Below, in pieces: positions 23,384-62,452 of a stretch of 64,000 bases of DNA. The position numbers and the translations under genes were made by a program. The notes below the pieces were generated by a model. It was given only the letters and a program-made list of their open reading frames with translations, had not been told where the DNA came from and did not search any database. Within the stretch, counting starts at the first letter, position 1; every line of letters begins with the position of its first letter. Origin of the DNA: Atriophallophorus winterbourni (taxonomy: Eukaryota; Platyhelminthes; Trematoda; Plagiorchiida; Microphallidae); assembly GCA_013407085.1 (NCBI GenBank), contig JACCGJ010009910.1, positions 1 to 64,000 of the forward strand. Reading direction: 5' to 3'.

Positions 23384-23418
23384 AAATATTCATTTGCATG
23401 CTTTTCCGTCACAAAACA

Positions 23419-23460
23419 TCCCACGACCGGTTTCGTGCTGTTTGCACTCATCAGGTAGGG
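23419..23460 (-). ncRNA. hammerhead ribozyme, family A
   Basis: The minus strand shows CCTAC, CTGATGA, stem II GTGC/GCAC with loop AAACA, GAAA, the palindrome ACCGGT as stem III, the site GGTC and GTGGG. Stem I pairs CCTAC with GTGGG. All catalytic residues are intact. Confidence 0.88.
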
Positions 23461-23653
23461 ACAGTAAGATCAGGATCCGCATGCGCTTGAAACAGTGGAG
23501 GAATGGTAAACAAGTAGCGATTGTATGCCACTGTTTGATAAGGCTGGTACGACCAACCTGTTCAATCACATGTGTCCAAACACATGTTCAATGGGGTTAA
23601 ACCCATAACCATGAAACAAAATATTCATTTGCATGCTTTTCCGTCAAAAAACA

Positions 23654-23695
23654 CCCCACGACCGGTTTCGTGCTGTTTGCCCTCATCAGATAGGG
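23654..23695 (-). ncRNA. hammerhead ribozyme, family A
   Basis: Same fold as its neighbour 235 bp away. Stem II has one change (GGGC/GCAC) and stem I is CCCTAT/GTGGGG. The core CTGATGA and GAAA are intact, with cleavage expected after GGTC. Confidence 0.85.
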
Positions 23696-23888
23696 ACAGT
23701 AAGATCGGGATTCGCATGCGCTTGAAACAGTGGAGGAATGGTAAACAAGGAGCGCTTGTATGCCACTGTTTGATAAGGCTGGTACGACCAACCTGTTCAA
23801 TCACATGTGTCCAAACACATGTTCAATGGGGTTAAACCCATAACCATGAAACAAAATATTCATTTGCATGCTTTTCCGTCACAAAACA

Positions 23889-23930
23889 TCCCACGACCGG
23901 TTTCGTGCTGTTTGCACTCATCAGGTCGGG
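23889..23930 (-). ncRNA. hammerhead ribozyme, family A
   Basis: The core, stem II (GTGC/GCAC) and stem III palindrome are intact. Stem I reads CCCGAC/GTGGGA. It occupies the loop between the inverted arms of this element. Confidence 0.85.
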
Positions 23931-24078
23931 ACAGTAAGATCTTACCGGTCGTGGGGTGTTTTGTGACGGAAAAGCATGCAAATGAATATTTTGTTTCATG
24001 GTTATGGGTTTAACCCCATTGAACATGTGTTTGGACACATGTAATTGAACAGGTTGGTCGTACCAGCTTTATCCAACA

Positions 24079-24090
24079 ATGTGATACTCA
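24079..24090 (+). repeat. target-site duplication, right copy
   Basis: ATGTGATACTCA, partner of 23372-23383. Confidence 0.65.
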
Positions 24091-24119
24091 GTTTTCTGAA
24101 TTTGTTAGGAAAAATTCTG

Positions 24120-24185
24120 GTTGCTGAATATTCACTTCGGGGTGAAATCCATGAGGTTTCACCTCTTTGTCAACTGAGCTATGCT
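24120..24185 (-). mobile_element. tRNA-like SINE remnant
   Basis: On the minus strand AGCATAGCTCAGTTGACAAA is a clear A box, followed by AGGTGAAACCTCATGGATTT and CACCCC, where the B box has decayed. No full cloverleaf is seen. Confidence 0.4.
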
Positions 24186-24310
24186 AATTTTGTTAACTTC
24201 GACCAAAGCCTGGTTATACACCATGCCATAAAACGCAATATCCTTGCATAAACATGATATAAACACCTGCATCGCATACTCTGACCTGGGCACACGTATC
24301 CATCGCACGC

Positions 24311-30363: not shown

Positions 30364-30365
30364 GG

Positions 30366-35025: not shown

Positions 35026-35249
35026 TATGTGCTTTGGGTGTGAGAGAAATTATGGTTCATCTATTAAACTTCAATTTCGCATAATCAAAATAATTTTTCG
35101 CCAATAAATGGCGATATACTTTGTGAACAATATAGCGTGTGGATTTTAGAATTATGATATAAACAACACAGTCGAAAAGTAGTGCTGAGAGGAACAAATT
35201 AAAAAAATATAAATCAAGCTCAATTGAAGATATTGAATTGAATTGCGCA

Positions 35250-35335
35250 TGCGGATTCTGATCTTACTGTCCCTACCTGATGAGTGCAAATCGCACGAAA
35301 CCGGTCGTGGGGTGTCTGTGATGGAAATGCATGCA
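35250..35335 (+). mobile_element. family A hammerhead repeat, single short copy
   Basis: The copy runs from GCGCATGCGGATTCTGATC through the ribozyme to GTGATGGAAATGCATGCAAA. Both ends agree with family A ends elsewhere, so this is a minimal one-ribozyme insertion. No clear target duplication was found. Confidence 0.75.
35271..35312 (+). ncRNA. hammerhead ribozyme, family A, intact
   Basis: CCCTAC pairs with GTGGGG (stem I) and CTGATGA is at 35277-35283. Stem II is GTGC/GCAC with loop AAATC. GAAA is at 35297-35300, ACCGGT is stem III, and cleavage is expected after C at 35306. No catalytic residue is changed. Confidence 0.88.
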
Positions 35336-35435
35336 AAGAGCTTTTACGAATGGATATATCTTTGATAAAACTCTGAGTTTATATGCTGCACGACGTATCA
35401 AATGATCACACAATCTGATTCGATAGGAATAATCT

Positions 35436-39700: not shown

Positions 39701-40254
39701 GAGGATAAAATGTAAAAATGGAAAGCGAACCAGAAATTAATTATGTTCTAAAATTTCATTTGTAAACGCAATGGTAAAATATTTGATTTCCCGTTTACGT
39801 GTAGATGACTTTATAATAGAAGACTACTGATTAAGTATCTTCATGAGATCAGATGGGAATAGTTAATAAACGAAAAATTAAATTGAATAAATAACAAATG
39901 TAGTGATGTGCGACATCCTTCAATCTATTGTCAGTTTTGTTTTTATCAGCCTTAACGCACATATACTAACACATGTTTATTTGCAGATCACCAAAGTTCA
40001 AATGCACCTTAAATGTCGCGTGACTAATGAAGTAAGTAAGTGAAGTGAATGTATTGTGTTGCTCACATCCCTCGCACTTATACACCACTACCGGTTTCTG
40101 GCTGTTTGCCGTCATCAGGCGGAGACAGTAAGATCAATTTCAGTGAGCCTCGAAACAGTGGCAAAGCGGTAAGTGAAGTGAAGTTTGGTGAATTTGGAAT
40201 GAGTTTGTGGTGTGTAAGACGCATTGCAATCTTGAACAAAAATACATATTTCTA

Positions 40255-40286
<32 letters not shown>

Positions 40287-43500: not shown

Positions 43501-44601
43501 TTCCGCGTATGTAATGATGAGAAAAATGTTGATATATACGGGAAAAACTGATCCCTCATGTATGTTAAAATCACTATGAGAAATAATATTGAAATGTTTT
43601 AAAAAAATGCTACTCAAAAGAAAAGTTTTCAATTGTACACAACAACGATTCGAAAGCAATCGGTTATGACGAAAATACGGATAGAATTTTCACTCATGTC
43701 CCAGCTTAATCAGATCAGGATCACTAAAACAAATAGGAAGCTAGATTAAATGTGTTGTAACCACAGAATTGGCACACTACTATAAGTCTTGATTATTTTA
43801 AATGTTTCAAAAAATCACTTCAACAAAGTATTCCAATGACTGATGGTGGTTTGTTGTACGAACCCTATGCAACAGTGGCATTCAAGTATAACTTTGTTTA
43901 CCATTTATCCACTGTTTCAAGGCTCACTGAACCTAATCTTACTGTCTCCACTCGATGACGACAAACAGCCAGAAACCGGTAGTGGAGTATAAGTGCGGGG
44001 GATGTGAGCAACACATCACTTTGGTCATCCATAAGCGCCTTGAGTGCTTGACCAAGAATCCCTTTTTGATTCTGTGTCTGAATATCGTGGTTCGTTGCAC
44101 AAACCCTATATAACAGTGGCATACAAGTTTAACTTTGTTTACCACTTTACCACTGTTTCAAGGCTCACTGAAACTGATATTGCTGTCTCCACCTGACGAC
44201 GACAAACAGCCAGAAACCGGTAGTGGTGTGTAAAGGATGGGGATGTGAGCAACACACTAGTTGGGAAGAACGTGCTCTTGATCGCTCACTTTGATGGCAC
44301 CGTGTAGAGCGTCACCTGCAAGCTGGGAAAGAGCAGATATTGCTCTTGACTGCCCAACGTTCATCGCGTCGTCAGCGCTAAACTTTTTCAATCTGCCGAG
44401 TACTGCCCATCGCTGTGTGAGCGGGCTGTTCGGTCAAATTAAACGCTGCTGAACATAAAACCCATGTGATGTATTTTCGACATCAACCGCGTTTGGCTAA
44501 CAACCAACTTGGGAGGGTTAAATATATCCCCCTAGGCGGAACGCAATGAAACAGAATGATATACATGTGCTTCATACAGACTAGTAATTGGATTTGCATT
44601 G

Positions 44602-44644
<43 letters not shown>

Positions 44645-47600
44645 GAGCAGACGGACGCAACTAACTGAATTTAAAACAAATCAATACACCGAATCTTTTA
44701 TTGCATTCAAAATTTATTGACGGAACATTGCCGACATAAATCATTTAGAGCTACGAATCTCCTACTCACTTCTCCCGAGGGTTCTCTAAAAGATACCGTG
44801 ACGTTTCCACGCCCGTTAGCTGGAAACACGATGATTGGGTCGTTGTCGTTCACATCGACAACGTAGATGTTGATTTTGGCCGTTGCCGAGCGCGGTGGTC
44901 GACCAGAGTCGGAAAGGATAACGGACAATTCGTACTCGGCTTGTCGTTCACGGTCCAACGATTGCGCGGTTGTCAGTTCACCGGTGGATGTGTCGAGCTT
45001 GAATTGCGAAGTTGAGGTGATGAGACGGAAGCGAAGTCGCGCATTGTCTGCTTCGTCGATATCACTTCCAAGAAGAATACCTGAATTGTTTGAAAAACGA
45101 AAAAAATCCTCCCATGGTTAAAACAAAACTGAGTGAATGTTTAAATTTCACACAAAAAATTCAGTTCATCGGTTTGCAGTTACTTGTAATAGCAGGTCGG
45201 TTTTTAATGAAGTGTATTTCTTTGAAGTTTTAAAGTTCACGATACATAAATCGTTAGCAAAACGTAACATATCGTAATTCACCAGTGTAGCATTAAAGCT
45301 GAAAGCCGTAAATTCCAAATTTCTCGCGCCCTTTTGAACAACTTTTACAAGAAATAAAATCACTCCCTAATACTCCCACCTTTTGGGATTGAATGAATTT
45401 AATGTAAGTCAAAAGGAACCATTTACGTACACAAAATTAGAAAGATTTTTAAGCATAAATAACAGGGAATATTGCAAAACTACTCTTTGGATTTCTTCGT
45501 ATATTATGGACGTTACATCAAAATATGCAGGCTGATAAATGTTGCTCAAAATTTAACTGATATTTTTAATCAATATAGAGTTCCCATAAACGTACCGACG
45601 TGCGTTACGGCTGGTTCATTTTCAGCGATTCGAAATTTGTAACAATTTTCATAATCGAGTCCAACGAATTCCGGTGTATTGTCGTTGACGTCTAACACGG
45701 ACAATTCAAAAGTGGCACTGCCGGTCAATGCATTCGGGCTTCCTTTATCTTTTGCGAATATTTCAAATCGATATCTGGATATTTACAGGAAAAATCGACA
45801 CATGATGTAATGTAATAGCTGAACAGAACATGTTCACTACACGCAGTAAGAATGTAATTAAACGTTATCGATTTCAATGGAGAAAATGCAATCCACCACC
45901 CAAGTTAAACTAGTTCAAAAGAAAGAATAAACTTAGTTATTCTTCAATTCCACTGTTACACAGGCTTCGTACAAAGAACCACGGTGTTCTAACACAGAAT
46001 CACATAGTGGGATTTCTGGCGAGGGATGTGAACAACACATTTCTTTGGTCATCCATAAGCGCCTTGAGTGCTTGACCAGGAATCACTTTGTGATTCTGTG
46101 TTTGAACACCATGGTTGGTTGTACGAACCCTATGTAACAGTGGCATTCAAGTATACACTTGTTTACCACATGTCCACTGTTTCAAGGCTCACTGAACTTA
46201 ATACTACTGTTTCCACCCGATGACGGCAAATAGCTAGAAACCGGTAGTGGTGTGTAAGTGCGTGGGATGTGAGCAACACATTAGTTTGGTCATCCAAAGA
46301 ATAAACTTGTTTGACCAATTGCTGTCATTCGCTGTAAAAGATAACTGCTTGCTACACGAATTGCAGCAATGAAAAGTGTTGGAGGCCATTTGAAATTAAA
46401 ATGTATATATTCACAATAATAAAAGATTTACAATTTGCTAATACGAATTAGGTCTTGCATCCACACAACTTATCATGCGTCACGGATTGTCAGAAGTAGA
46501 ATTTCCACTATCCTTTTCAAGCTAGATATAATTATATGAACCGCTTGACTTATAAACATTAAGTGTTATGCTTGATTTGCCAATATTTTTGAAACGTAGC
46601 AAAGATAATCAGAGCTATTTTGAAATAATGAACGTTGGGCGATCGCGTTTAAATGAAGCAACGAAATTATATGTAATCAAAGTTATAGCAACAAAACTTC
46701 TTTTCACAAAATCTCTTAGTTTCCTCTGTGAAAAGGTATTTCAACCTCGCTTTAAACCTCTCAAATAAAGACACCAATCGTTTAGGAAGATCTATTTTTC
46801 TTATCCTGAAATCATCGATGTCAAATTAATCTTGTTATAGCGGTATCTTTTCCTCCAAATTAAATGAACAACAGCTTCTACAACTCAAATAAAATCCCAC
46901 CGATCGATCAGCGTAATTGATTTAAATTTTCAAATGAATTTTAAGGATGCCTGACGCAGGCGCAAGTGCTTATGACACCTGAATGATTGATAAAATAGCT
47001 GAGAATGTTGAGATGCAATCGAGTTGTCTTGGCAGAAAGGATTTCAACGTGATTGAAAAAGAATTGAGGATGAGTTGCCCTACTCGTTCAACAACGGAAA
47101 ACCTCTCGATTGAACGGGAAATCTCGAGAATATTTATGGGTAAAATTTGACGGTTAAAAATTTTCAAACCAGTCTGATGGCTCTAAACAGTGTGAGGCCA
47201 GGACAATTGGATTATTCTGCTCGAATAACGCCAACCTTCCAACTTAGCTATCTATAACAGTGGTAATCTGATTAGGAAAAGTTAAATTTGCGCGCACATT
47301 GCTTGAAGGATATTGAACAATTCAGTTTTATTGAATTAAATTCAATTCGAATGAGATTTCAATCAAAGAAAATATTCAGAGTTGATGAGATGCATGTTGG
47401 TTTATTGACGAAGCGAAATATTGTCTCGAAACTAGCTTCGCTTTCGTTTATTTTACGACCAATTGTATTTTTATTCGATCGGCTTGCTTGTGCAGTCTTA
47501 TAATGATCATTAATCACGTGTGTTGTCCTCGTTGTTGATTGCCTTGCATGTATAAATATTGGTCATCATGTATTGAAACACCAATAACGGAAAACAAAAT

Positions 47601-50600: not shown

Positions 50601-53600
50601 AGTTTGAATTATTTATCAAAAACATTGCTGATCTTTGACAGTTTTAATTTGCTTAGGTCATTTAGATAAGATGCATGCCAGGATGAAACCTCCGTTTGAC
50701 GACGCCAGATCTTCGTTTTTTCCACGGGTCATGACTGACCACAGTGCTAATGCAAACATTTCGGATAAATTTCTTGGACGTAAGGATTCATTATCACTTA
50801 ATGATAGAATAATCTCTCTTGCCAAAAACGTCCAAGTTTCAAATTACTTGATGCTGATACTTAATGCCATGTCCAAAGATACCCATTTGCATTTTCATCA
50901 TACACGCACACCACGACCGGTTTAACGCTGTTTGCACTCAACAAGTAGGGACTGTACGATTAGGATCCGCATGCCTTTAAACAGCGGAGGAATGGTAAAC
51001 AAGTTGAGCTTGTGAGCCACTGTTGGATATGTTTGGCACGACCAACCTGTTCCTTCACATGCACCTATACACATATAGATGGGTTCAAACCCATGATCAT
51101 GAATAATGATCTTCATTAGCGCGACTTTCCAGCACACAAACACATACACCCTCCACGAACGGTTTCGTGCTGCTTTCACTCATCAAATAGGGACAGTCAT
51201 GTAATTTACACCGTTAATATTCATCACATTATCGATCACAAACAAAATCGATTGTTGCCTACTTTGACAAATATGTCATCTCCAATAAGCAATTATTTGA
51301 ACGCAAATTATATTCAACGTTTGTTCCATGTCTCACTTTTGTCTCACTTCTCGGTCGAACATCATGCGTGTGTACAACGTGCCTTCAATCGGGTCCACGC
51401 GAAAAAATTCCGACCCAGTTGCATCCAGGAAGTATTCGATCTCAGCGTTACGACCGCTGTCCATGTCAGTAGCACTTATTTTACCCACAATCGTATCAAT
51501 TGGTTTATTTTCTTCGAGCGTCAGCTGAAATTGGAGAGCCAAGTATTGAAAATTCGAGTCAGGGAGTATCTTCAATATTTGCATTGCTACATGAATATCA
51601 ATAAAAGAACTTTGAAATTAAAATATCTGCTAGCTAGGAACGTACAGTCTATTTTGGCAAGGAATCATGTTGGCAACTCGGACATTTTAAAATTTGAGCA
51701 AATGGATAATTGTTATAATTCTATATTTTATACCAAATTCGATATTCCAAAAACATTGAATCCAAGATTTCCGAAGTTCTTTTTGTTCATCTTTCGGGAA
51801 ATGCTGTCGCTGAATTTGTATCTGTTTCAGTTATTTCCTACATTTATTCCTTGAGCATCCGACACAGTGTCGATTATTTGGTCCTCTTTGACCTCCAAGC
51901 ACATCAAACCTAATGTTTGAGTTTTGCATCGTTTCCTTTAAGTGCAACATTGTACGTTCATTAGGTAAATCATTAAGTCGGGGATCCACGAAATAATTTG
52001 GAGTCTATCGACTCAACTGTCCTCAAAACGCTCCAGCCAATTCTTCGTTACATGATGTAGTGAACCGTGTATACAACTGAGAATGCAGCATTGGGTTTTA
52101 CTCGAAAGCCCGTGTAAACTTTATGAGCTAAGATCGAACTGTTCAGTATCCTAGCACTTCAAAGTATTACATAACCTTTGTACAACAATTGGTTTGTTTT
52201 GCTTCAACCAGTTAGGACATTGTTAAAGTAAGTCCCGTATCTCACGATCAATATTTTCCCCACAACAAACTGTTGGAACAATTTCTGGATCGAAACTATC
52301 AAAAGACTTGAGAACATCTTCATGGCACCTCAGTTAATTTGTGAAAATTCGGGATGTCACGACCAGACTATTAACCGCAAAGCATTGCTTACAGAGAGCT
52401 TTGTTAAATATCAAAGGGAAAGGACATTGTTTTCTAGATTTAAGGTAGTTTTCAAAATAGTTTACAATGCTCATCTGCGACGTGCTTTTGAACGTTTTTC
52501 ACCGCCAACATTTTTTCTAATGATGGACACGCGGTACTGCATTAAACTATCCAAGCCTGCGCACCACAGTTCGAAAACCTATCTTGCTTTGAGACCGTTT
52601 ATATCACCTAAAGTCTACGCTTGTCGAAGCTTTTGAATATCTGACATACTCATTTCGATCTAGATTATACAATCTGGGCTGCTCTGAACTTACACCAATG
52701 CGCTTGATACGTATGCCCACATTAATGACCAGAGACCTACCTAAGACTAAATTCATTTAGGAAAGCAAATCCTATCGGGCATAAGATTCGGTATTGTGTA
52801 TAAACTTGACAGAGGGAGAAGACCGAAAGCTGAATTCTACTACAACGAGTATACATAAACGCTCATTTACCCTTTTCATAGGTGAGCTGCGATTGGTCAC
52901 ACTTGTGGATATGTAACACACGGATCGGTTTTAAAAGCTAATTGATTTAAACTTTATTTGACTCGTTGAAATTGGTTTTTAAATTATTTGATTCAAACAA
53001 TGAAATTTCAGTCGCCTGTTTGACCGAGCTTGGCTAGGTAGTCTGAACCTTTGGGGGAATGCAGCTCAGCATATTTTTCTGGCTGAATTATCTGGTGCCT
53101 TGCTGAAATCTTTATAAAAGTCCGGTACGAAAATGTTGAATGGTCTTTTTATCAATAGATGATGGATAAATAACATAGCGAATAAAAAGGGATAGCCATA
53201 GTAATGTGTTTCTCACATCCCCATCCTTTACACACCACTACCGGTTTCTAGCTGTTTGTCGTCGTCAGGTGGAGACAGTAAGATTAGGTTCAGTGAGCCT
53301 TGAAACAGTGGTAAAGTGGTAAACAAAGTTAAACTTGTGTGCCACTGTTACATAGGGTTTGTACAACGAACGACGATGTTCAGACACAGAATCAAAAAGT
53401 GATTCTTGGTCAAGCACTCAAGACGCTTATAGATGACCAAAGTAATGTGCTGCTCACATCCCCATCTTTTACACACCACTACCTTTTTCTGGCTGTTTGC
53501 CGTCGTCAGGTGGAGACATTAATATCAGGTTCAGTGAGCCTTGAAACAGTGGTAAAGTAAAAAAGGGATAGATTGCCCCCTATCCCTTCAAAACGGTGAA

Positions 53601-56600
53601 AAATCAATTAAAAGATTTACCTGGTAATGGTTCTGAGTGAATTTTGGCGCATTGTCGTTGAGATCTTCCACATGTACGTTGACTGTGAACGTGGAGCTCA
53701 GAGATGGTTCTCCAAAGTCACCGCAGACAATCTTGGAAACAATCATAACATTCGTTAGAAGCTTTATGAATTGAACATCATACAACGAAAATCCGTGACC
53801 TTCGTGAGTGATTTTCAGAATTAAAATGCTTTAGACAAAGTTAGTAATGGGTCGTCGATATGTTCCGTACACCGAAAGATTGCGATGTCTGGGTTTCTGT
53901 GACTTTACCAAAAGGAGGATACGACGCGATATTATTTTGACCTATATAATTATGTCTACCGAAGGACATCCACTAAAAAACTTGCTTGATGTGTGTGAAG
54001 GGAAAATGACACGCGGACATACCTTATCCCTTTACGTTCCAAGTTCCCGTGTAGATTGTCGGAGACATTTTTTATTTGGAATTCCCTACCCCAACATGTG
54101 GTGGACTCTCCTTGCCTGGCGGTGTTTAAAGCAAAATTGGACTTATACATGCAAAAGAACATCATCTGTGATCCTTACATTTGATATTCTCTATTCCTTT
54201 TATACTATTCAATTTTTAACATTTTCATTCATACCATAATCCTGTGGTGTTGTAAAGTAATAAATTTTTAACCATAAATCCTTGATTCCTTTAACCTTTA
54301 GATCCTAGAGTCTACTGCTTTATCACAAAGGTATATGCGTTCATGTTAAATATCTAACGGAAAATTTTATTTTTAGTTCAGCAAACGATTATAAGAATAA
54401 GTCAAATTAAATAAAAATTGCGCATTGTTGTTAGAATAATTGCAAGGTTCGAGACATTTGGGTACTAGTAAATAGCGTGAGCCTGCTTTAAATATCGATT
54501 AAAATTTGTCGCAAATTTTGTATTATAACACTTAAATGTTAAGATAACTTAATGAAATAAAACATCGTTCTTAAATTGCAGAATTTGGCAATATTAAAAA
54601 ACTTCTTGAAGTATTTGGATACTTGTTTAACTTGATCTATTCTGACTTCCGCTTTGAAACATATCTTATTTCCTTACGACCAAAGCTTCGGAGGCCTAGA
54701 TGTCAAAGATCCCGAATTCTAAATCAGAAATAAATGAAGTGAAACTTGAAAGAAAACTAGGTGCTGCAAGCCAGTTGTGTTTATTAACAAAAATCAAACG
54801 AATCTAACATGCATCAATGAGTCGAGCTAGATAATAAATCATTGTTGCCTCGTTGCATTTTGTTCAATCTATTTTTGTTGACCCCACCTTCGATATTCTA
54901 CAACCGGTTCTAAACTGTTTGTCTTCGTTGCCTTTACTAAATCTAGCTGAATTATGTCAAGCGAAAATAAGGGTATAACGTAGTCATTAAGCTATCATTC
55001 ATTTCGTTTCACCGGATGCCTTTTGATTGGTTTATGTGTAGACGCGAGAATATCATCTGCACACTGTCTAAAAAATAGACTGCTGTTATTCTTATGAAGG
55101 TCGATGCTACGAATTATGACTTTTTATTGACCAGTTTGTTAACATTTTAGAAAATGAAATTTCATAGGTTTGAATAATTCATCAGTTTAGTTTCCGGTGC
55201 GTTCCCCGGTATAAACATGCGTAAAACGAGAGAAAAGCAGACGAGTGCTAGAAATGACAGCATTCGATGAAAGGATATATATATATATACAACTCATTTG
55301 AATTAACGTTTAGTTTACTTCCAGAATGTAGTATACTCGAAATAATAAACTTAATTCAACGAGCCAACAAAAACATTAAGTTCATGTGACAAATGCGACA
55401 AATATTTTCGGTTGGGATTTTTTGGCGAAACCAATGAATTAACAGTCAAACTCTCCATTAATAAAAATCGTGTTATCGAAATCAGCATTATCAATGCTTG
55501 ATTGGGTACGCTAGCATAGTTTTTCAATCTACCGTGCTTTGTTTGGAAATCTAAATTTTAGTTATAAACCGTTTTTATTTCGAAATGCGTCAAAAGGGTG
55601 CACCCAATTTTTATGGATCCGTTGTTTAACCATTTAGTTTTATGACTTCCAGTTCATTCAGATTTGTCTTAGCTTTAGGTGGTTAATTTATCTTCCAACA
55701 TTTACGCAACGATCCAATTCGTATGAACTAATACGACAACCAAAGTTAAACTTGTATGCCACTGTTACATAGGGTTCGTACAACGAACCAAGATGTTCAG
55801 ACACAGAATCACAAAGTGATTCTTGGTCAAGCACTCAAGGTGCTTATGGATGACAAAAGTAATGTGTTGTAAGGGATGGAGATGTGAGCAACACTTTGGT
55901 AATGCGATAACCGTTTTAGATTATTTGGTATACCAATTACAATAATTGGTGCAACAGATTTGAGAATAAAGGTAGCCCACAACTCATCACATCTCAATAG
56001 AAATTAACATTCCATATTCCAGAACTGTGATTGGATGAGTTCTCTGTGAGCAATATCATGAAACAATGAACTGTGACCTCGCATAACATTTTTGATTCTG
56101 AGTTGATAGCTTAGGCCGTTTTGTAATCTGCTGCTCTGCCTGAACCAGGTAGGAAATAATAGTGAGAGACTACATTACATGTACTCAAATAACTAGTCGA
56201 AATTTAGCCACGCACAAACTATGTGAAACGAAACCCCAGATTGTTCAACGAAAACACGTAGACTTGCAAATCAAATTTAAGCTCAATTATTGTCCAATTT
56301 TGTCGTGAGCTCATCTAATCCACTTAAATATAAATAAAATTTGGAATGGTTGGAATATGCTTTCATTTGGCGGCGAGTATATTTTTAATTACACACTTGA
56401 AAAGATGAATTTCGAAATCTTTCAAACCCGTTGTTTCGATTCTGTATTGTCCTAGATTAATTATCTATGATTTTCCAAGCTAACAATGCTAGATACGTTT
56501 AAGTTATGTATGTAAAACAAGTCTGATATTCTCAGATAAATCAATCAATACTATAACTAGTAAATCAGAACTCTGTTTATGCTTAGTAGCTCTCAAAATA

Positions 56601-59600
56601 AATCTTTCTCTCAACATTATAACCAGGTGTAAATAAGACCCCAGTCCTTAAATTTAAACGTGGTTTTACATCCGGAAATCAACCGTAAGTTCTGGTTGTG
56701 TTTAGAAACGGAACATTTATTAACTCGAAACTACACATTTTTATGGTAGAAAAACAATCAGCTCAACAAACGCAGATTACCGAGGATTGGAGTAAAATTA
56801 ATTAACCTTCGGGGGTTACTACGACAGTCACCTAACGCATAGTGTGCCATGTTTTCATCGAGCTTCAAAGTGAAAAGAGCAAACAAGCGTATGATTCCAT
56901 ATGGAAGGCTTTCCAAGTGAAAGAAATTCTACCAGAGAAAATATTATGTCGAACATCCAATCACGAATGTCATGTGGTCGAAGCCGTTAAATGTTTGCTT
57001 GTTCGACAAAAATCCTCGGGCTTTATCGAACGTTTGAGAGTGATTTTCATTGTGAATTCCACCATAAGATCACTCCCTATACGTCCTTGAATAAAATGTC
57101 ATACTTTTAATGTTGACATTTTCTCTTGGAAAGGCGTACTGTGAGCCAACTTGGTTGAACGTTGATAAATCATGTCAATGATGACCATGCCATGGTGACC
57201 AGTTTTGTATTGAAATCCCATAACAGTACGCACGTGTGTATTCAGTATATGGGGTAGGGAATCTGGCGTGAAATTTCTGAATATTCTTTGTAGCAGATTG
57301 AAAACATGGTGGGCTTTATTATACACTGTGTAGCAATGCTGCTTCTGTCTGACTTTACAGGACACTCAGACACGAACCCACCTACACAATCACTTGTACA
57401 GTCTATACTGCAAGGTATTTGTGCACATGGATTACGTAAGCAGTGTGTCAGCGGATACAGTTCGCACCTGCACACTAAATAAACAATTTAGGGATTAACA
57501 AAGCATTTATGGAGTGTGATCAATTATCTTGATCTCCCCTGTCTAGCTTAGAGAACTCAGGATTGGTCAAGTAAAAGCCATTTAAACCTGAACACTATTC
57601 GTACCGACACCCTTGGACTAACGAAGCTTCTGTGCTCAGAAGCGAAACGTTACCAAAAACCTGCTATAACAGGTTCATTACAAACTTTATTTTCAAGTTC
57701 ATACTACAATTTTCAACCTTCATGCAGACAATTGTAAACAGCATTTCCCTCCCGTATCCAAATGTACAAGTACACAAAGCTGTTTTCCGCGATGGAAGGG
57801 AATGCACATATATGCTCGCTATCAAAGCGCATGTTGTATAGCACAGATGATTTTAGCTTTCTCTTTCAGTTAGAGCACCATGCTGAAAGTGACTCAGGAT
57901 TGGTTAAGATTTACGTGCATTGTAAAATCGATAGCAAAACTGGGAGGCAAACAGCAAATCTTTAGATTTTTCTGAACAGCACCAACTCATTAACGTGTTA
58001 AAGTAAGATCAGTAGATAGCAGCCTCAATAGAATTTGTGAAGATTCTAAATAATTGACCAAGGATATTATTAATACGGCCAAAAGTCTCAAATGTATCGA
58101 ACTAACTTGAGCGTGTAATTGCACTGCAGAATAATTGTACTGTTTCCATCGCTGATCTTGATCCTACTGTCCCTACTTGATGAGTGCAAACAGCACGAAA
58201 CCGGTCGTGGGGTGTGCTTGTGATGGAAATACATGCATATGAGCATTTTTTACATGTTTAAATTATTTCAAATAAGATTATATAAGATCAGACGCAAAAA
58301 TCGCGCGTCATGGAAATTCGAAAGTAGAAAAAGATTATGAGCATTCGCTTGCTACTTAAAGAGCTTTATTTAAAATCTTTCAAAAAGTCTTTTATATTAT
58401 TTAAAAAATATACACGAGTTCAAAATCACTAAATTAGGATAATATGTTTCGGAGATAACGAACATACCAAAACTTGTTCCATCTTTTCCCTCTCATGGTC
58501 GAATCCTCCAACCGCAATCAACTCAAATTGATTTTTTGAGATTGCATTCAACCTGAATGTTCCCGCTGACATTGACAATGGCTCTTGATGCTGATCGTCC
58601 GTTGCTTTGACGCGATAATATTCCCTTCCGTCCTGTCCCACAAACCCTAACAATTCTGCTTTATTCGCTAATTTGGATTCTTTGAGTCCACACTGAAATT
58701 GTCCACCACTAGCAGAATCCGGATCTCGAACTGAGACCAAAGCCAGTAAAATGTTTCGATCGTGCAACAACGGGGTATATTTCCCATCCGTAACCTGCTT
58801 GATGGTCGCACTCTCGGCTACGTGTAAATTGGCTGTGTTCTTCTGTATTGATTTATTTCGTTCTCGAGGGTTTTTTATAATTGACTCCAGAATGGGTTCC
58901 ACTGAGATGATTGGTGCCACATCATTCACATCAAGCACAAACACGTTGACAGTCGCCTCATCGAATCCAGGATGACCTGCTTCATCTTTGGCCAAAACGC
59001 GGATCAAATATTGCGTGGTTCGTTCATGGTCCAACTCCGAGTTCAAACTCAACCATCCTGTGTGTGAATCAATATGGAATGGTGAATTGGATTGGTTAGG
59101 GTTGGCAAGTCCGAAGCTATTCTCTGCCAAACTGTATGAGACAAGTCCTCCTCTGCCATCGTCTGGATCGTGTGCAACGAGTTGGATTAATCGTCTACCT
59201 TTCGCTGAGTCCTCGGGAACTGAAATGCTGAAGGATTTGTTCACAAATGTTGGATGGTTGTCATTCTCGTCGGTCACTTGGATCTAAAGTCAAGACAGAA
59301 AATGTGAACGATTCTATGATGTTGTGAACTTTCTAAATGCAAACACAAGTTAGCTTGTCTATGTAATCTTTCGATTAAATAGTTTTAGTGCTTCACACCG
59401 CTTACTATTGTGGGCAACTATTTCACTGTCAGTAAACGGTAATTTAATTGTTGCCTTACTATTAATGACACACCAAGTCGAAGCTAAAAATAAAAATAGA
59501 ATGTAAAATGATTACAGGTTGCAAGCCATTATTCAATATAAGCCAGATGAGTCCATGGTGTTATTGAGAGAAAAATAAAGAATAATATTGGTGATATTAT

Positions 59601-61674
59601 TACTATCAATAAAAGCTGCTTTATATCCACTAGACTGCCATCCTTCATGAGCAATTAACTGCCCAACACCTAGCATATTACTTAACTGTAGAAACTCTGT
59701 GTTCAATCTATAGCTACTCTTACCCTGTCAATAAGACAACATTGCGTACTAGGGTAGAGTTTCAATAGAATGCTATGACGAGGTGCAACGCCTTGTCAAC
59801 ATCACGTGATTAAGAAGCCACGGGCATTCCCTCACAACTCTAGCATACAATATTTAATAGCCACGTTGTTGACATAATCTAGTCTGCACAGCGTAGACTT
59901 TGCTAATCCTAAGCGCCTTGAGTGCTTGATTCTGTGTTTGAACATCGTGGCTCGTAGTAAGAACCCTATGCAACAGTGGCATTAAAGTATAACCTTGTTA
60001 ACAATTTATCCACTGTTTCAAGGCTCACTGAACCTAATCTAACTGTCTCCACCTGATGACGGCAAACAGCCAGAAACCGGTAGTGGAGTGTTATTTTGGG
60101 GATGTGAGCAACACATCACTTTGGTCATCCATATGCGCCTTGAGTGCTTGACCACGAATCACTATGTAATTCTGTGTTTGAACATCGTGGCTCGTTGTAA
60201 GAACCCTATGCGACAGTGGCATCCATGTATAAGTTTGTTTAGCATACAATATCTAACAGTCACGTTGTTGATGTAATCTAGTCTGTACAGCGTAGACAAG
60301 GAACGTCCCATTGTGAACGAACAATCGCAAAAATATAAATTACCTAATATAAATGAAAACTAGCCTCGACGTATGCAGCGAGATACTAGCAATATCGTAA
60401 TGAATGTTAGAAATACTTTTATTCAAAAAAGGGATTCAAGTCAATAATGTGCATATCGGACCCAATCGGTTTTCTTTTGCTGCTTAATGAAGTCTTCATC
60501 GGCAGGCTGTACTTCACATCTTACTACTCGATGATATAAGCTTCGTTATCATAAGTCAAGAGGCTGCAAAGTTAGATTTTATTTCTGATCTACGTTAGGA
60601 AGTTTATTGAAACACAAATAGATGTACATATGAGGTCCAGCTTCCAGAAAACTATCAGATTTTGTTACAAGCGGTTTCGAACTACACGCAAAAGTTATGT
60701 TTTACACCCAATTTTATCTGTTTTCTTTGAGGAAAATTGTTTACTTTTATATGGTACATGTTCGAGGTTTTTTTAGCTTCATTTCACAGAATGGAACGAC
60801 CGGTATCCGTAAACTTCATACAATCTCAGTCACCCTCAAAATTAATTACCGTTTGCATCAAACAACCCGAAATTCAGAGGTTCTGGTCGAAAGTTCTTGA
60901 CTTTTTTGAAGTTATTCCGAGGTAAATAACATATGCAAATATTTATATGTAAACACAGAGTGCTTTAATGAACAGGATTCACTCCACCACCGAATAAGAC
61001 AGTCTTATACGCAGCCTATTTTCAATATGATGTCTGCTTTTTATTGTCAAAGTTCCTTCTAATCAGTTCTCAAGTCAACATTTTAGGAACAAATCTATCG
61101 TCTGCCAATGTAACTAAGCGGATAACTTCATGATTAACGATACTCCACTTGGATACCAACTACATAAATGTTAGGATTATTAATCTAAGTTTATCAATGA
61201 TTTAAATAATGTCAGTTTGTTTAGTAAACATACGAAGTAGACAAGAGCCGAAGACAACCCTGGGGAAATAGGTATCCACGAATTTTCTCAAGTGAAGTAT
61301 CGACGAACACAGGGTTATCTTCTAAATTATTTGTCGTTGATTATTCATTAAAAATCAAGTGAATTTTTCGCACCTGTATTTCCATTTGTCCCGCCAAAGA
61401 AGGCACTCCATTGTCCTCGGCTACTAGGATGAATTTGTATAACTTTTTTGTCTCCCAGTCCAAAGATTTCGAAAGGTTCAAGTAAACTTGTGTCGGGGGT
61501 GAGTGAACGTGCGCATATCCTGGAAAGTTGGGCGCGGACGCGATTTCTGGGTACTTGGTATGTGCAACATAATCAAACATGGACGTCCGATGTTCCGTTG
61601 GTAGCGCGTCGAAACCCAAGGTGGAAAGTTGCACAAGTTCAAATGTTCCAACTTCCTCAGATTTTAAATGATAT
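36348..61674 (-). CDS. delta-protocadherin-like cadherin, gene model of ten exons (5' part missing)
   Basis: Cadherins are calcium-dependent cell-surface adhesion proteins. The exons in order are 61674-61374, 59283-58468, 53731-53621, 51524-51337, 45774-45596, 45080-44770, 43028-42798, 41873-40953, 39294-39219 and 36781-36348. Every junction is GT..AG and the phases fit (in order 0, 0, 0, 2, 1, 0, 0, 0, 1). Joined, they encode about 1188 residues. There are about six extracellular cadherin repeats with DxNDNxP-type linkers (DENDNHP, DLNDNAP, DVNDNTP, DVNDND), one transmembrane helix near residue 780 and a tail of about 390 residues without an obvious catenin-binding motif. The first exon starts inside a repeat, so signal peptide and earlier repeats are missing. 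Introns of up to 5.6 kb are full of repeats. Confidence 0.9.
37740..37836 (+). mobile_element. CR1-like 3' end remnant
   Basis: GTTGTTAAGCTTGTTGCTTT is followed by AGACCATTAAAAACG and TTGAATTACCTTGAATTACC, two copies of a 10-mer tail. The layout is that of the CR1 3' ends at 25.5 kb. No coding part could be recognised upstream. Confidence 0.45.
37985..38200 (+). mobile_element. RT fragment, RTE-like
   Basis: Read across stops, the plus strand gives [14 protein letters not shown] and [20 protein letters not shown]. This resembles the PLFKKGxxxxCxNYRGISL region between RT motifs 1 and 2. It is a short, heavily mutated fragment. Confidence 0.5.
39219..39294 (-). CDS. protocadherin-like, exon 9 (short, cytoplasmic)
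   Basis: The acceptor TGATTTTTACAG and donor AG/GTAAATG bound a 76 bp exon. In the phase set by exon 8 it reads [13 protein letters not shown] and [12 protein letters not shown], then leaves one G for exon 10. It has no stop in that phase and links both neighbours in frame. This is a prediction without an independent family match. Confidence 0.6.
40036..40049 (+). repeat. target-site duplication, left copy
   Basis: GTAAGTGAAGTGAA is repeated exactly at 40169-40182, flanking a 119 bp hammerhead element. Confidence 0.8.
40050..40168 (-). mobile_element. family B hammerhead retroelement, minimal 119 bp copy with 14 bp TSD
   Basis: The insert holds one ribozyme with about 35-45 bases on each side. 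In its own sense it begins CGCTTTGCCACTGTTTCG and ends GATGTGAGCAACACAATACA. The exact 14 bp duplication on both sides defines its ends. It lies in the sense orientation in the protocadherin intron between exons 8 and 9. Confidence 0.85.
40084..40124 (-). ncRNA. hammerhead ribozyme, family B
   Basis: CTGATGA, then CGGC, loop AAACA, GCCA, GAAA, ACCGGT and the site GGTA before GTGG. Stem I pairs CCGC with GTGG (one wobble or mismatch). The 10.1-11.1 pair is C/A instead of the usual G-C, and the cleavage-site base is A. Confidence 0.72.
40169..40182 (+). repeat. target-site duplication, right copy
   Basis: GTAAGTGAAGTGAA, partner of 40036-40049. Confidence 0.8.
40256..40545. repeat. (GATA)n microsatellite
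   Basis: About 290 bp of TAGA/GATA tetramers with variants (GGTA, GATT, GATG). The minus-strand open frame of repeated Tyr-Leu-Ser-Ile is a product of this repeat, not a gene. Confidence 0.97.
40953..41873 (-). CDS. protocadherin-like, exon 8 (membrane-proximal, TM, cytoplasmic)
   Basis: It follows the acceptor TTTGCATAG and starts [10 protein letters not shown] in phase 0, completing the last cadherin repeat. It ends DDSFD at a GTAAGT donor. About 45 residues of stalk precede a strong transmembrane helix ([20 protein letters not shown] and following, about 41705-41615) and a basic stop-transfer CGRRGFRF. The remaining 220 or so residues are cytoplasmic and Ser/Thr-rich. The open frame continues past the donor to 40917, but those codons are probably intronic, given the strong donor. 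Confidence 0.88.
42798..43028 (-). CDS. protocadherin-like, exon 7 (last cadherin repeat)
   Basis: It begins after GTCCAACGAG with [20 protein letters not shown] and contains [16 protein letters not shown] before a GTGAGT donor. ARDPDEG is the calcium-binding DxD region of a cadherin repeat and VQDAGVPP is the usual strand F end. It joins exon 6 (...SFREPSGE) in frame. The acceptor is weak but is the only AG in reach. Confidence 0.88.
43290..43575 (-). mobile_element. CR1-like C-terminal fragment
   Basis: The minus strand reads [20 protein letters not shown] and [20 protein letters not shown]. This is the same C-terminal region as the element at 29770-30363, about 55% similar by eye. Both ends are truncated. 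It lies in a protocadherin intron in the sense orientation. Confidence 0.75.
43945..43986 (+). ncRNA. hammerhead ribozyme, family B, core altered
   Basis: CTCGATGA replaces CTGATGA, so the core is disturbed. Stem II, loop AAACA, GAAA, ACCGGT and stem I with GTGG remain. Activity is unlikely. Confidence 0.6.
44186..44228 (+). ncRNA. hammerhead ribozyme, family B
   Basis: TCCAC, CTGACGA (position 7 may be any base), CGAC/GCCA around loop AAACA, GAAA, ACCGGT, then A before GTGGTG. Stem I CCAC/GTGG is perfect. The 10.1-11.1 pair is not G-C. Confidence 0.68.
44268..44400 (+). repeat. interspersed repeat family D, best copy
   Basis: GTGCTCTTGATCGCTCACTT, TGGCACCGTGTAGAGCGTCA and CCTGCAAGCTGGGAAAGAGC recur on the minus strand at 10515-10640 and weakly at 8670-8740. 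The type is unknown. Confidence 0.45.
44603..44642. repeat. (AT)n microsatellite
   Basis: A pure AT tract of 40 bases in a protocadherin intron. Confidence 0.95.
44770..45080 (-). CDS. protocadherin-like, exon 6
   Basis: After CAAACAATTCAG the split Gly is completed and the frame reads [20 protein letters not shown], with [40 protein letters not shown] and SFREPSGE before GTGAGT. It supplies most of one cadherin repeat (calcium motifs DIDEADN, LDRE and DVNDND) and the start of the next. Confidence 0.93.
45596..45774 (-). CDS. protocadherin-like, exon 5
   Basis: The acceptor CTGTAAATATCCAG gives, in phase 2, [20 protein letters not shown], then [17 protein letters not shown] and [14 protein letters not shown]. 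It ends with one G before GTACGT. AKDKGSP and DVNDNTPEF are textbook cadherin strand and linker motifs, and AENEP starts the next repeat. Confidence 0.92.
45922..45934 (+). repeat. target-site duplication, left copy
   Basis: AAAGAATAAACTT is repeated exactly at 46296-46308, flanking a family B element. Confidence 0.8.
45935..46295 (+). mobile_element. family B hammerhead retroelement with 5' inversion and 13 bp TSD
   Basis: From about 46015 to 46295 the copy runs in the plus sense through one ribozyme. Its first 70 or so bases (GGCTTCGTACAAAGAACCAC, then CACAGAATCACATAGTG) are the unit in the opposite orientation. Exact 13 bp duplications lie outside both parts, so the inversion arose within one insertion event. 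It is antisense to the protocadherin gene. Confidence 0.85.
46210..46253 (+). ncRNA. hammerhead ribozyme, family B, C3/U4 region altered
   Basis: The core reads CCGATGA, followed by CGGC, loop AAATA, GCTA, GAAA, ACCGGT and A before GTGGTG. One core base differs (CTG to CCG), so activity is doubtful. Confidence 0.6.
46296..46308 (+). repeat. target-site duplication, right copy
   Basis: AAAGAATAAACTT, partner of 45922-45934. Confidence 0.8.
46309..48059. other. intron DNA, nothing recognised
   Basis: Unique AT-rich DNA inside the large intron between protocadherin exons 4 and 5. The open frames at 46568-46768, 46970-47167 and 47288-47503 have no motif. Confidence 0.45.
48060..48150 (+). mobile_element. 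decayed hammerhead repeat
   Basis: GACCAACACGCTCCCAATTA, then CGCCTGGAGGAAGACAACAG, TACAAAACCGTTGGTGTCGT keeps the order core, loop, GAAA-like strand, ACCGGT-like stem III and GTGTC, with many changes. It lies just downstream (in minus sense) of the Penelope-like remnant. Confidence 0.4.
48330..49860 (-). mobile_element. Penelope-like element: RT plus GIY-YIG endonuclease remnant
   Basis: Minus-strand pieces read [40 protein letters not shown] (the KGDGxVxxNRxDYxxKM block of Penelope RTs), [26 protein letters not shown] (catalytic YMDD near 49110-49121) and [21 protein letters not shown]-type tail near 48330-48545 includes [20 protein letters not shown] and [17 protein letters not shown]. 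At least three stops and several frameshifts make it inactive. Penelope-like elements are retroelements related to telomerase and commonly carry hammerhead ribozymes. This one lies in a protocadherin intron, in sense. Confidence 0.85.
50909..50950 (-). ncRNA. hammerhead ribozyme, family A, decayed
   Basis: The minus strand reads CCCTACTTGTTGAGTGCAAA, CAGCGTTAAACCGGTCGTGG. The core has two changes and GAAA is TTAAA. Stem I and stem III remain. It should be inactive. Confidence 0.6.
51151..51192 (-). ncRNA. hammerhead ribozyme, family A, near intact
   Basis: CCCTAT, TTGATGA (C3 to T), GTGA/GCAC stem II with a changed loop (AAGCA), GAAA, ACCGTT and C before GTGGAG. Stem I can pair. The C3 change and the lost stem III palindrome probably weaken it. 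Confidence 0.65.
51337..51524 (-). CDS. protocadherin-like, exon 4
   Basis: The acceptor TCTCCAATTTCAG opens [20 protein letters not shown], then [20 protein letters not shown] and [15 protein letters not shown]. Of two GTGAGA donors, the second (after CAAAA) leaves two bases that form Lys with exon 5 and keep the frame. [14 protein letters not shown] and FDRE are cadherin signatures. A 200-codon open frame on the other strand is only its antisense. Confidence 0.93.
52031..52190 (-). mobile_element. second Penelope-like C-terminal fragment
   Basis: The minus strand reads [20 protein letters not shown], then TVHYIM and a stop. It aligns with [20 protein letters not shown] and YTVPNN of the element at 48.3 kb. 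Only this GIY-YIG-linked tail is recognisable. Confidence 0.55.
53184..53195 (+). repeat. target-site duplication, left copy
   Basis: AAAAAGGGATAG is repeated exactly at 53560-53571. Confidence 0.78.
53235..53275 (-). ncRNA. hammerhead ribozyme, family B
   Basis: CTCCAC, CTGACGA, CGAC/GCTA with loop AAACA, GAAA, ACCGGT, A and GTGGTG. Stem I CCAC/GTGG is perfect. It is in sense in the intron after protocadherin exon 3. Confidence 0.7.
53476..53516 (-). ncRNA. hammerhead ribozyme, family B, stem III changed
   Basis: CTCCAC, CTGACGA, CGGC/GCCA with loop AAACA, then GAAAAAGGTA: the ACCGGT palindrome has become AAAGGT. The core and stem I are intact. Confidence 0.65.
53560..53571 (+). repeat. 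target-site duplication, right copy
   Basis: AAAAAGGGATAG, partner of 53184-53195. Confidence 0.78.
53621..53731 (-). CDS. protocadherin-like, exon 3
   Basis: The acceptor ATTGTTTCCAAG opens [20 protein letters not shown] and the exon continues [17 protein letters not shown] to a GTAAAT donor. It carries the linker motif DLNDNAPKF. Both ends are phase 0 and join exon 2 (...KMEQVL) and exon 4 (LTLEENKP) into continuous cadherin sequence. Confidence 0.94.
53838..54300 (+). mobile_element. CR1-like 3' fragment (same family as 30366-31905)
   Basis: The reading frame holds [39 protein letters not shown] and [20 protein letters not shown], then [16 protein letters not shown] in a shifted frame. 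It ends CCATAAATCCTTGATTCC, like its relatives at 31.9 and 35.7 kb. It is antisense in a protocadherin intron. Confidence 0.82.
54895..54940 (-). mobile_element. decayed hammerhead repeat
   Basis: The minus strand keeps AACGAAGACAAACAGTTTAG, then AACCGGTTGTAG. The core has decayed beyond function. Confidence 0.45.
55738..55895 (-). mobile_element. family B hammerhead-repeat fragment with inverted end
   Basis: From 55738 to about 55870 the unit runs in the minus sense (GTTCAGACACAGAATCACAA and CAAGCACTCAAGGTGCTTAT blocks). It then switches at once to the plus sense (AAGGGATGGAGATGTGAGCA). The ribozyme itself is lost at the joint. The inversion sits at the 5' end of the element, as in the copies at 24 kb and 46 kb. 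Confidence 0.7.
57099..57365 (-). mobile_element. CR1-like retrotransposon fragment
   Basis: [20 protein letters not shown] and [14 protein letters not shown] align with the CNYVYRKISQKLSFLKTIFG and IINTYIRPTMEYAV region of the element at 24.8 kb. It is short, frame-broken downstream, and in sense in the protocadherin intron. Confidence 0.6.
57610..57655 (+). ncRNA. hammerhead-like motif, solitary copy of the foldback type
   Basis: CTAACGA, AGCTTC, loop TGTGCTCA, GAAGC, GAAAC, GTTACC. Stem II GCTTC/GAAGC is perfect here and stem I can pair TTGG with CCAA. The core has G5 changed to A. It matches the motifs in both arms of the 6.6-7.4 kb element. Confidence 0.45.
58150..58240 (+). mobile_element. 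family A hammerhead repeat, single short copy
   Basis: It runs from GCTGATCTTGATCCTACTG through the ribozyme to GTGATGGAAATACATGCATA. The layout is that of the copy at 35.25 kb. It is antisense to the protocadherin gene, 228 bp from the end of exon 2. Confidence 0.75.
58171..58212 (+). ncRNA. hammerhead ribozyme, family A, C3 changed
   Basis: CCCTAC/GTGGGG stem I, TTGATGA core (C3 to T), GTGC/GCAC stem II with loop AAACA, GAAA, ACCGGT, and C at the cleavage site. It is otherwise perfect. Confidence 0.8.
58468..59283 (-). CDS. protocadherin-like, exon 2 (large)
   Basis: The acceptor GTCTTGACTTTAG opens [20 protein letters not shown]. One complete cadherin repeat follows ([61 protein letters not shown]). 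A second repeat has an inserted loop of about 40 residues (from [14 protein letters not shown]), then [20 protein letters not shown] and [15 protein letters not shown] to a GTATGT donor. [20 protein letters not shown] is typical of delta-protocadherins. The 816 bp exon is phase 0 at both ends. Confidence 0.95.
59842..59898 (+). repeat. 57 bp direct repeat, left copy
   Basis: AGCATACAATAT...GCGTAGAC is repeated at 60241-60297 with six differences, all transitions. The pair exactly flanks a family B hammerhead element. Confidence 0.85.
59899..60240 (+). mobile_element. family B hammerhead retroelement, about 1.4 units, between 57 bp direct repeats
   Basis: The insert starts inside a unit (AAGCGCCTTGAGTGCTTGAT), passes one ribozyme and ends inside the next unit (GTGGCATCCATGTATAAG). 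So the same unit parts occur at both ends, as expected from a circular or tandem template. It is antisense to the protocadherin gene. Confidence 0.82.
60046..60087 (+). ncRNA. hammerhead ribozyme, family B, best preserved B copy
   Basis: CTCCAC, CTGATGA, CGGC/GCCA with loop AAACA, GAAA, ACCGGT, A and GTGGAG. Stem I CTCCAC/GTGGAG is a perfect six-pair helix. The unusual C/A at 10.1-11.1 and A at the cleavage site are as in the whole family. Confidence 0.78.
60241..60297 (+). repeat. 57 bp direct repeat, right copy
   Basis: Partner of 59842-59898. Confidence 0.85.
61374..61674 (-). CDS. protocadherin-like, exon 1 of the visible part
   Basis: The acceptor CATCTCATTGCAG is followed in phase 2 by [20 protein letters not shown], then [20 protein letters not shown] and [18 protein letters not shown] before GTGCGA. 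It forms the middle and end of a cadherin repeat with a LDWE variant of the LDRE motif and AEDNGVPS. It needs an upstream exon ending in phase 2, which was not found in the remaining 2.3 kb. Confidence 0.9.
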
Positions 61675-62299
61675 CTGCAATGAGATGCATCCGAAATCTA
61701 TGTTGTATATATAGTATGGATAATTGAAATGGCTCATAGCTCTACTATTAATACAATGGTAAATGGAAGTGTGTAGTATATGTGCGTCTGAGGACCGTTG
61801 AAATGTTTTCTTACGTGTCTCAAATTCTAATAACACGAAGGCTGAAAGAAGACTCATGAGATTAGGTTTTTTCTTGGGTTAAGAAGGAATATTAAGGAAA
61901 CATATAAGCCTAATTTTACACTCAATAAGATATAACTCTCCAAAACATTATTCAAATTACCGAAATTCAATTTGAAGTGATGTAAGCTGAACTAGAACTA
62001 AAATTGCATCTAATATGATAACGATGCCTCTTTAATTAAGCGTTTGTAAGTCGTAAAGTAGTAGCATTTAGCGTCCTTTATGCGTTGAGGGAAATAAATT
62101 CATTCAAAATACGAGGACACTAGGACGTTTCTCTATTATAACCCACAGATTACTGTATGAGTTGTAAGTGAAATGTATATTTGTATAATTCAGCAATAGA
62201 ATATAGATTACTGTTCATGCATCAAATTTAGGCATTCAAAGTAGTTCGCAGTCGTATCAGTAGTATATAAAAACTGAGGTTATTTCGCTTTTTTTCGTA

Positions 62300-62452
62300 C
62301 CAATCTTATCCAAGAGAGTGCAAATTGTTTTCCATCCTTCCACTGTTTCGATCGTACGCGGATCACGATCCCACTGTTTCTACCAGATGACGGCAAACAG
62401 CACGAAACCGGTTGAGTGTGTGTGTGTGAGATGGAAATTCAGGCAAATGAGA
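62300..62452 (+). mobile_element. hammerhead repeat with mixed A/B features
   Basis: CCTTCCACTGTTTCGATCGT and ACGCGGATCACGATCCCACT lead into the ribozyme, and GAGATGGAAATTCAGGCAAA follows it. The flanks are of family A, while stem II has the B-like 5' strand ACGGC and the A-like 3' strand GCACG. Confidence 0.7.
62378..62425 (+). ncRNA. hammerhead ribozyme, A/B intermediate, core changed
   Basis: CAGATGA replaces CTGATGA. Then CGGC/GCAC stem II around AAACA, GAAA, ACCGGT and TGAGTG. Stem I is poor, so activity is unlikely. Confidence 0.55.

Follow-up and report, generated by a model that had tools for sequence, protein, structure and literature searches.

Two families of short hammerhead-bearing units

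We analyzed a stretch of 64,000 nucleotides (64 kb; hereafter the window) from the trematode Atriophallophorus winterbourni (GenBank assembly GCA_013407085.1, contig JACCGJ010009910.1, positions 1 to 64,000), which holds two types of short repeated unit with type I hammerhead ribozymes: family A, with a unit of 235 bp, and family B, with a unit of 241 bp. An earlier reading made from the letters alone (the sequence-only reading) had described a dispersed retroelement family with units of 235-242 bp, as both units proved to be, and had placed at least 20 copies, each with a single hammerhead, between positions 23384 and 62452. We identified 16 distinct places related to unit A, unit B, or both (E<=1e-3), of which 10 hold a hammerhead that passes our template scan, 14 hammerheads in all. 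Members occur from position 7549 on, so the earlier range was too narrow, and the claim that every unit carries a ribozyme was overstated: six places have no hammerhead in the scan (7690-7753, 12264-12358, 19914-20035, 26453-26571, 55734-55869, and 62290-62412). Several places contain more than one unit; the family A tandem at 23382-23941, for example, comprises 2.4 copies of the 235-bp unit with 96% matches, its sense orientation being the minus strand. Coordinates of the individual copies are given in Table 1.

Both units are dispersed through the 537-Mb assembly (537,331,230 bases in 15,840 contigs), and the expectation that they would be present elsewhere in the genome was thus borne out. 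The A query gave at least 116 matches (40 scored of 3265 first-look candidates) and the B query at least 94 (40 scored of 5203). Among the loci fetched from the assembly (designated L), six pairs resemble duplicates of one place, and the others differ in their printed flanks. Copy size ranges from below one unit up to 13 successive units (L057). GC content is 0.443 in A and 0.448 in B, and the longest open stretch in a tripled unit is 97 amino acids, so that no long open frame is present (one unit per family).

Hammerhead ribozymes

We scanned the window with a fixed-spacing hammerhead template, allowing at most two core mismatches and requiring at least six stem pairs. This gave 20 hits, compared with one in the reversed window sequence used as a control. 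Fourteen hits lie inside family places, nine of them with a perfect core, and six lie outside (6650, 16152, 24118, 31043, 61625, and 63131). The hammerhead layout, core, and ACCGGT stem III are as the sequence-only reading had them, and the two sites it had singled out, 23419-23460 and 35271-35312, are exact in coordinates and perfect in core. The Rfam type I hammerhead model (RF00163), which it had named as a check, recovers family A weakly and family B not at all. No window site reached the gathering score of 34 bits; in E-value mode there were four sites, at 19526-19570 (33.4 bits), 58171-58212 (28.7 bits), 23419-23460 (26.8 bits), and 23888-23932 (21.7 bits), the best of which belongs to a different family, C. 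In the assembly, where 74 of 96317 candidates were scored, RF00163 gave at least 32 matches, 27 of which exceed the cut-off. Eight of the matches were fetched and read around the motif, and they belong to family C, neither A nor B; among the remaining 24, eight resemble family A in their span of 42 nt.

The majority sequence of family B has a stem II of CGGC/GCCA, with a C-A mismatch at pair 10.1-11.1, which should weaken cleavage. The hammerhead core is more conserved than the rest of the unit in family B (67 of 5000 random sets were as high) and no more conserved than the rest in family A (1936 of 5000). Family B has spread despite the mismatch, and cleavage may perhaps not be strictly needed. 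Cleavage was dispensable in vitro for the Penelope-like element (PLE) studied in PMC11167929. All three families have a palindromic stem III, ACCGGU in A and in B and CUCGAG in C; such a stem would permit hammerhead dimers, as have been reported from amphibians and PLEs (PMC7229834, PMC7761336).

Insertion ends and head-to-head composites

To compare insertion ends, we set position 1 of each unit (U1 in A, UB1 in B) at the base that follows the predicted site of hammerhead cleavage. The RNA-3' side of the arrays tends to stop about 43 nt past the cut, in A after AATATTTTG/TTT and in B around CACATTACTTTGG (site 1). Many copies bear an antisense piece at the opposite end, and the outer boundary of these pieces often falls at one place, TAAACAAG/TAAACAAAG, which is the conserved TTTGTTTA/CC (site 2; about +152 in A and +160 in B). 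This motif was part of the conserved body recognized in the sequence-only reading. Among the non-duplicate copies retained, 66 of 90 RNA-3' ends fell in two short ranges: 20 of 45 at U36-52 and 10 at U144-156 in family A (binomial p 7e-17), and 24 of 45 at UB36-52 and 12 at UB152-164 in family B (binomial p 7e-25), with the caveat that these narrow ranges were picked after inspection of the data. Ends of the 5' type are scattered, with only 1 of 11 (A) and 4 of 16 (B), or 5 of 27 in total, within the same ranges.

Thirty elements are two-ended, head-to-head composites. With wide ranges (33-59 for site 1; 121-156 in A and 129-167 in B for site 2), 21 pair site 1 with site 2, three use site 1 twice, one uses site 2 twice, and five have an end elsewhere; with the narrow ranges the corresponding numbers are 14, 3, 0, and 13. 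The inner junctions of the composites are variable. Among 32 inverted junctions, 16 share at least 2 bp, 10 share at least 3 bp, and three share 0-1 bp, counts that stand without a chance baseline; 13 of the 32 contain unaligned bases. Visual inspection of the printed ends of A and B revealed no poly(A) tail. Two composites, L012 and L018, are chimeric, with one A end and one B end.

We scored target-site duplications (TSDs) at the outer ends of 55 elements. A score of at least 9 was reached by 24 of 55 elements, compared with 25 of 1500 mismatched 5'/3' pairings used as a control. By class, TSDs were found in 20 of 30 two-ended composites versus 4 of 25 one-ended copies. They are mostly 9-15 bp long (13 bp on average), have an A+T content of 67.5% (60.6% in the window and 59.8% at A loci), and vary in sequence from place to place.

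Templates and RNA folding

A linear monomer cannot be the sole template, because many copies exceed one unit, up to the 13 of L057. Identity is 0.961 within and 0.926 between arrays in family A, and 0.942 versus 0.925 in family B; since units within an array are barely more alike than units of different arrays, circular and multimeric templates are both possible. In circular folds of one unit each, z was -2.6 (sense) and -3.3 (antisense) for A, and -0.4 and -1.2 for B. The circular folds thus do not speak for the sense strand. In majority-sequence folds, the segment between the two sites forms a series of hairpins, four in A (z -2.4) and five in B (z -3.6); the last hairpin is strongly conserved in sequence and common to both families, whose series otherwise differ in sequence. 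For longer window stretches z was mixed (0.3 for win50, -0.1 for winB44, and -2.3 for win23), and the majority-sequence folds are no more than suggestive.

Penelope-like elements in the same genome

Matches to the PLE reverse transcriptase (RT) are present in the assembly (150 scored of 2900 candidates), some of them arranged in tandem (~2.52 kb), and open frames reach 947 amino acids. One PLE unit, L090, has an RVT_1 match above the cut-off and a GIY-YIG match just below it (21.3 vs 22.6 bits), and carries a stem-III-less hammerhead at the start region of its open reading frame (ORF). The same type of hammerhead occurs in four of eight further PLE stretches (L091-L094); it was not seen in L095-L098, stretches that may miss the region. 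Eleven PLE copy ends were defined by blastn limits, and six of them map to +43 to +82 relative to the hammerhead cut of the PLE itself (two at +43 and +50, four at +68 to +82), one of the six being the outer end of an inverted 5' piece. PLE fragments lie at five of the 60 fetched unit loci L009-L068 (L014, L058, L063, L066, and L068), and the other 55 gave no match to two PLE protein probes within ~1.5 kb of flank. At L086, where B pieces flank a PLE, we considered these as its pseudo-long terminal repeats (pseudo-LTRs). Reading by eye suggested separate insertions: the 3' B piece is flanked by a ~15-bp repeat and the 5' B piece has its own inverted piece.

Several PLE-related sequences were observed beside these. 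In the window, 3190-3235 (minus strand) is a remnant 87% identical to the PLE hammerhead region, and 6626-7365 is an inverted repeat with 228-nt arms (88%) and a stem-III-less, PLE-like hammerhead motif in each arm. L088 and L089 contain near-identical PLE endonuclease pieces as palindromes, with LTR-type RT sequence nearby; 231-bp tandem repeats in these two loci gave no Rfam hammerhead match.

Table 1. Copies of families A and B, their parts, and a retroelement coding region in the window
Feature	Position	Strand	Remarks
Family A fragment	7549..7611	-	decayed hammerhead 7549-7590
Non-LTR (LINE-type) RT	13383-14960		matches many trematode proteins
Family A composite insertion	23382..24087	-	array plus inverted piece
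Array of 23382..24087	units 23425-23659, 23660-23894; partial 23895-23941	-	3' end U43 = 23382
Inverted piece of 23382..24087	23951-24087		outer end U137
TSD of 23382..24087	~23372-23383 and 24079-24090		imperfect, 12 bp, ATGTAATACTCA/ATGTGATACTCA
Type I hammerhead	23419..23460	-	perfect core, minimal ACCGGT stem III, H17 = C; 26.8 bits
Type I hammerhead	23654..23695	-	perfect core
Type I hammerhead	23889..23930	-	perfect core; 21.7 bits
Truncated family A copy	35245..35337	+	perfect-core hammerhead 35271-35312
Family B fragment	40048..40187	-	hammerhead 40083-40124
Family B tandem, partial + full unit	43843..44256	+	3' end UB34; no TSD found (score 4)
Hammerheads of 43843..44256	43946-43987, 44187-44228		two core mismatches in 43946-43987
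Family B composite	45928..46296	+	sense unit 46018-46246, 3' end UB50
Inverted piece of 45928..46296	45928-46014		outer end UB160 = start site 2
TSD of 45928..46296	45922-45934 and 46296-46308		exact, 13 bp, AAAGAATAAACTT
Hammerhead of 45928..46296	46211-46252		one core mismatch
Divergent family A copy, 79% identity	50915..51197	-	hammerhead 51151-51192, one core mismatch; no TSD found (score 5)
Family B copy, ~1.5 units	53190..53558	-	3' end UB49; hammerheads 53233-53274, 53474-53515
TSD of 53190..53558	53184-53195 and 53560-53571		exact, 12 bp, AAAAAGGGATAG
Family B composite	55738..55894	-	UB159-ended piece + inverted UB7-33 piece; no scan hammerhead
TSD of 55738..55894			weak, TAATACGACAACC/TAATGCGATAACC, score 7, under the cut used
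Family A copy	58139..58260	+	hammerhead 58171-58212, 28.7 bits, one core mismatch
Family B copy	59897..60244	+	ends at UB163 (start site 2 side); hammerhead 60047-60088; no TSD found (score 4)
Decayed family A/B copy	62290..62459	+	no hammerhead passing scan

Other features of the window

Two ORFs on the minus strand, at 40917-41852 and 58429-59277, may belong to one host gene. The latter has a Pfam cadherin match, its best named sources being Paragonimus (45% identity) and Echinostoma (42%); the former has no Pfam match. The cadherin matches and those of the non-LTR RT both indicate a trematode genome. A DDE_1 transposase fragment lies at 33442-34065 (minus strand).

Discussion

The proposal of the sequence-only reading that these elements are retrozymes agrees with what we found: the units are small, GC-poor, and without a long ORF, they are tandem and dispersed, they have a type I hammerhead, and 24 of 55 elements have TSDs. 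It was right yet incomplete, in that it missed the head-to-head composites with two preferred start sites. The evidence supports A and B as new families fitting the class of metazoan non-LTR retrozymes (PMC7229834; Cervera and de la Pena 2020), among whose carriers platyhelminths are named. Those retrozymes, like A and B, have low-GC units of 170-400 nt with a type I hammerhead, occur as tandem dimers to multimers, and have TSDs longer than 4 bp when TSDs are present. All of these characters (unit size with hammerhead, tandems, low GC with no long ORF, and TSDs above 4 bp) are found in A and B, with the limits that truncated copies can lack the hammerhead and that the family B majority has the stem II mismatch. 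The available part of PMC7229834 describes neither preferred start sites nor head-to-head composites, and a search of the open literature, a scope that leaves out most subscription papers and all preprints, gave no earlier account of target-primed inverted retrozyme insertion.

Two other groups of hammerhead elements offer a comparison. Sm-alpha-like short interspersed elements have a tRNA-like RNA polymerase III promoter head. In A and B we found no good B box (best with three mismatches, sense strand). The schistosome repeats Sm-alpha and Sj-alpha (PMC6155905, PMC8490949), likewise from trematodes, are short and have a type I hammerhead, as A and B do; their closer counterpart is family C, of which copy L008 has a B box with one mismatch. 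Family C (window 19526-19570, plus strand; L001-L008) is Sm-alpha-like, with a tRNA-like head and a GGTTCGAATCC-like B box. Its hammerhead is canonical, with a CTCGAG stem III, the window copy having an altered core (CTAAA), and inverted element pairs occur in L001, L002, L005, and L007. Plant LTR retrozymes (PMC4918200) are likewise non-autonomous and hammerhead-bearing, but differ in their type III hammerhead, LTRs, 4-bp TSD, and probable mobilization by Gypsy elements (PMC7229834, PMC7761336).

PLEs have been put forward as the elements that mobilize animal retrozymes, on the grounds of co-occurrence, tandem copies, and hammerheads in common (PMC7229834); a 2020 review describes the retrozyme repeats as without a conserved motif that would reveal the autonomous partner (PMC7761336). 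Typical Penelope inserts consist of direct pseudo-LTRs with an adjacent inverted one, with TSDs of 8-10 bp in the cases quoted, none in some copies, and an optional ~31-bp tail at one end (PMC3846280). A purified PLE protein cuts and extends both target strands, and begins at two adjacent internal sites without homology to the target (PMC11167929). The likeness to A and B is one of several characters: two internal RT start sites and priming from both target strands, as we infer for A and B, and also an inverted 5' piece, short TSDs, tandem copies, and a hammerhead (PMC11167929, PMC3846280). Because the end clustering, the two-site composites, and the TSDs parallel Penelope copies, the mode of insertion points to PLE-type machinery; it is on this mode, not on homology, that the link would rest. 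A and B encode no protein and have about a tenth of PLE length, and units without RT or GIY-YIG coding (no long open frame) are not PLEs themselves. In our view A and B are likely to be animal-type retrozymes, non-autonomous and mobilized by PLE-like machinery.

Several observations weigh against this conclusion. Our loci are not a random sample, having been taken as the top matches of two query units. Of the RNA-3' ends, 24 of 90 lie outside both ranges, and the narrow ranges pair both sites in just 14 of 30 composites. TSDs at a score of at least 9 are missing from 31 of 55 elements, control pairings reached scores of up to 18, and the chimeras L012 and L018 are without a TSD (score 6 each). 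Units within arrays are only slightly more alike than units between arrays. The start sites are 106-118 nt apart in A and B, as against 30-40 nt in PLEs (PMC11167929, PMC3846280). Five of the 11 PLE ends fall at the cut or upstream of it (positions 291, 325, 329, 335, and 230-231, the last group being amplified endonuclease pieces). When A and B were compared with one PLE unit, no sequence relation was found (best blastn E 0.006 over 21 nt), and a TACAAG hairpin near the PLE start site that resembled the conserved body of A and B was rejected, being coding and not conserved in other PLE units.

We weighed three other explanations. A and B could be pseudo-LTR debris of some PLE family not found here, and not independent retrozymes; their insertion anatomy equals that of PLE copies, and PLE fragments lie at five of 60 unit loci. 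However, the remaining 55 loci have no PLE probe match within ~1.5 kb of flank, as many as 13 units follow one another in L057, the two B pieces beside the L086 PLE do not read by eye as pseudo-LTRs, and A and B have no sequence similarity to the PLE unit read, all of which makes this explanation unlikely. Alternatively, the units could owe their mobility to a long interspersed nuclear element (LINE), through target-primed reverse transcription of the ordinary kind with twin priming. Twin priming produces inverted 5' pieces, at varied internal sites, while the first strand begins at the RNA 3' end. A non-LTR RT is indeed present in the window, but 66 of 90 ends of A and B start at clustered internal positions, unlike those of twin priming, and the printed ends show no poly(A) tail on inspection by eye; we regard a LINE as a rather improbable partner. 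Spread without an RNA step, as a satellite or an inverted-repeat DNA transposon, would suit the tandem and inverted arrangement and the 13-unit run that is hardly more alike internally than across loci (0.940 vs 0.922), yet it is very improbable given the unlike outer ends (site 1 and site 2) of 21 composites out of 30 under wide ranges and 14 under narrow ones, where terminal inverted repeats would match, variable inner junctions, scattered 5' ends, and TSD sequences that differ among places.

If A and B do move on PLE-like machinery, their cycle might run as follows. Multi-unit copies would be transcribed, and the hammerheads, suited to dimers by the 6-nt palindromic ACCGGU stem III, would cleave the RNA into units of 235 or 241 nt, which may become circles by analogy with PMC7229834. 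A PLE-type RT/endonuclease would then cut both target strands with a stagger that the TSDs place mostly at 9-15 nt. Each exposed 3' end would prime reverse transcription at a preferred internal RNA position, as the observed end positions suggest, often with site 1 serving one target end and site 2 the other. Synthesis could pass one full unit, as the arrays indicate, which would need a circular or multimeric template, and two cDNAs would finally be joined head to head to give the structure seen in the composites. The chimeras L012 and L018 may indicate that each target end can be copied from a separate RNA molecule; since neither has a TSD, a nested or an adjacent insertion could also account for both.

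A further step is possible, and we offer it tentatively, as something we would not yet bet on: A and B may be miniature Penelopes, in which the hairpin segment between the sites would serve to dock a dimer of the PLE RT. Each of its protomers would begin cDNA at a different edge of the segment and serve one end of the double-strand cut. If so, the composite scar would record an insertion with two primers and sometimes two templates.

How animal retrozymes spread was an open question. The two start sites, two-ended composites, and TSDs of families A and B give a signature of the partner, and this signature predicts where a PLE enzyme should start on A and B RNAs.
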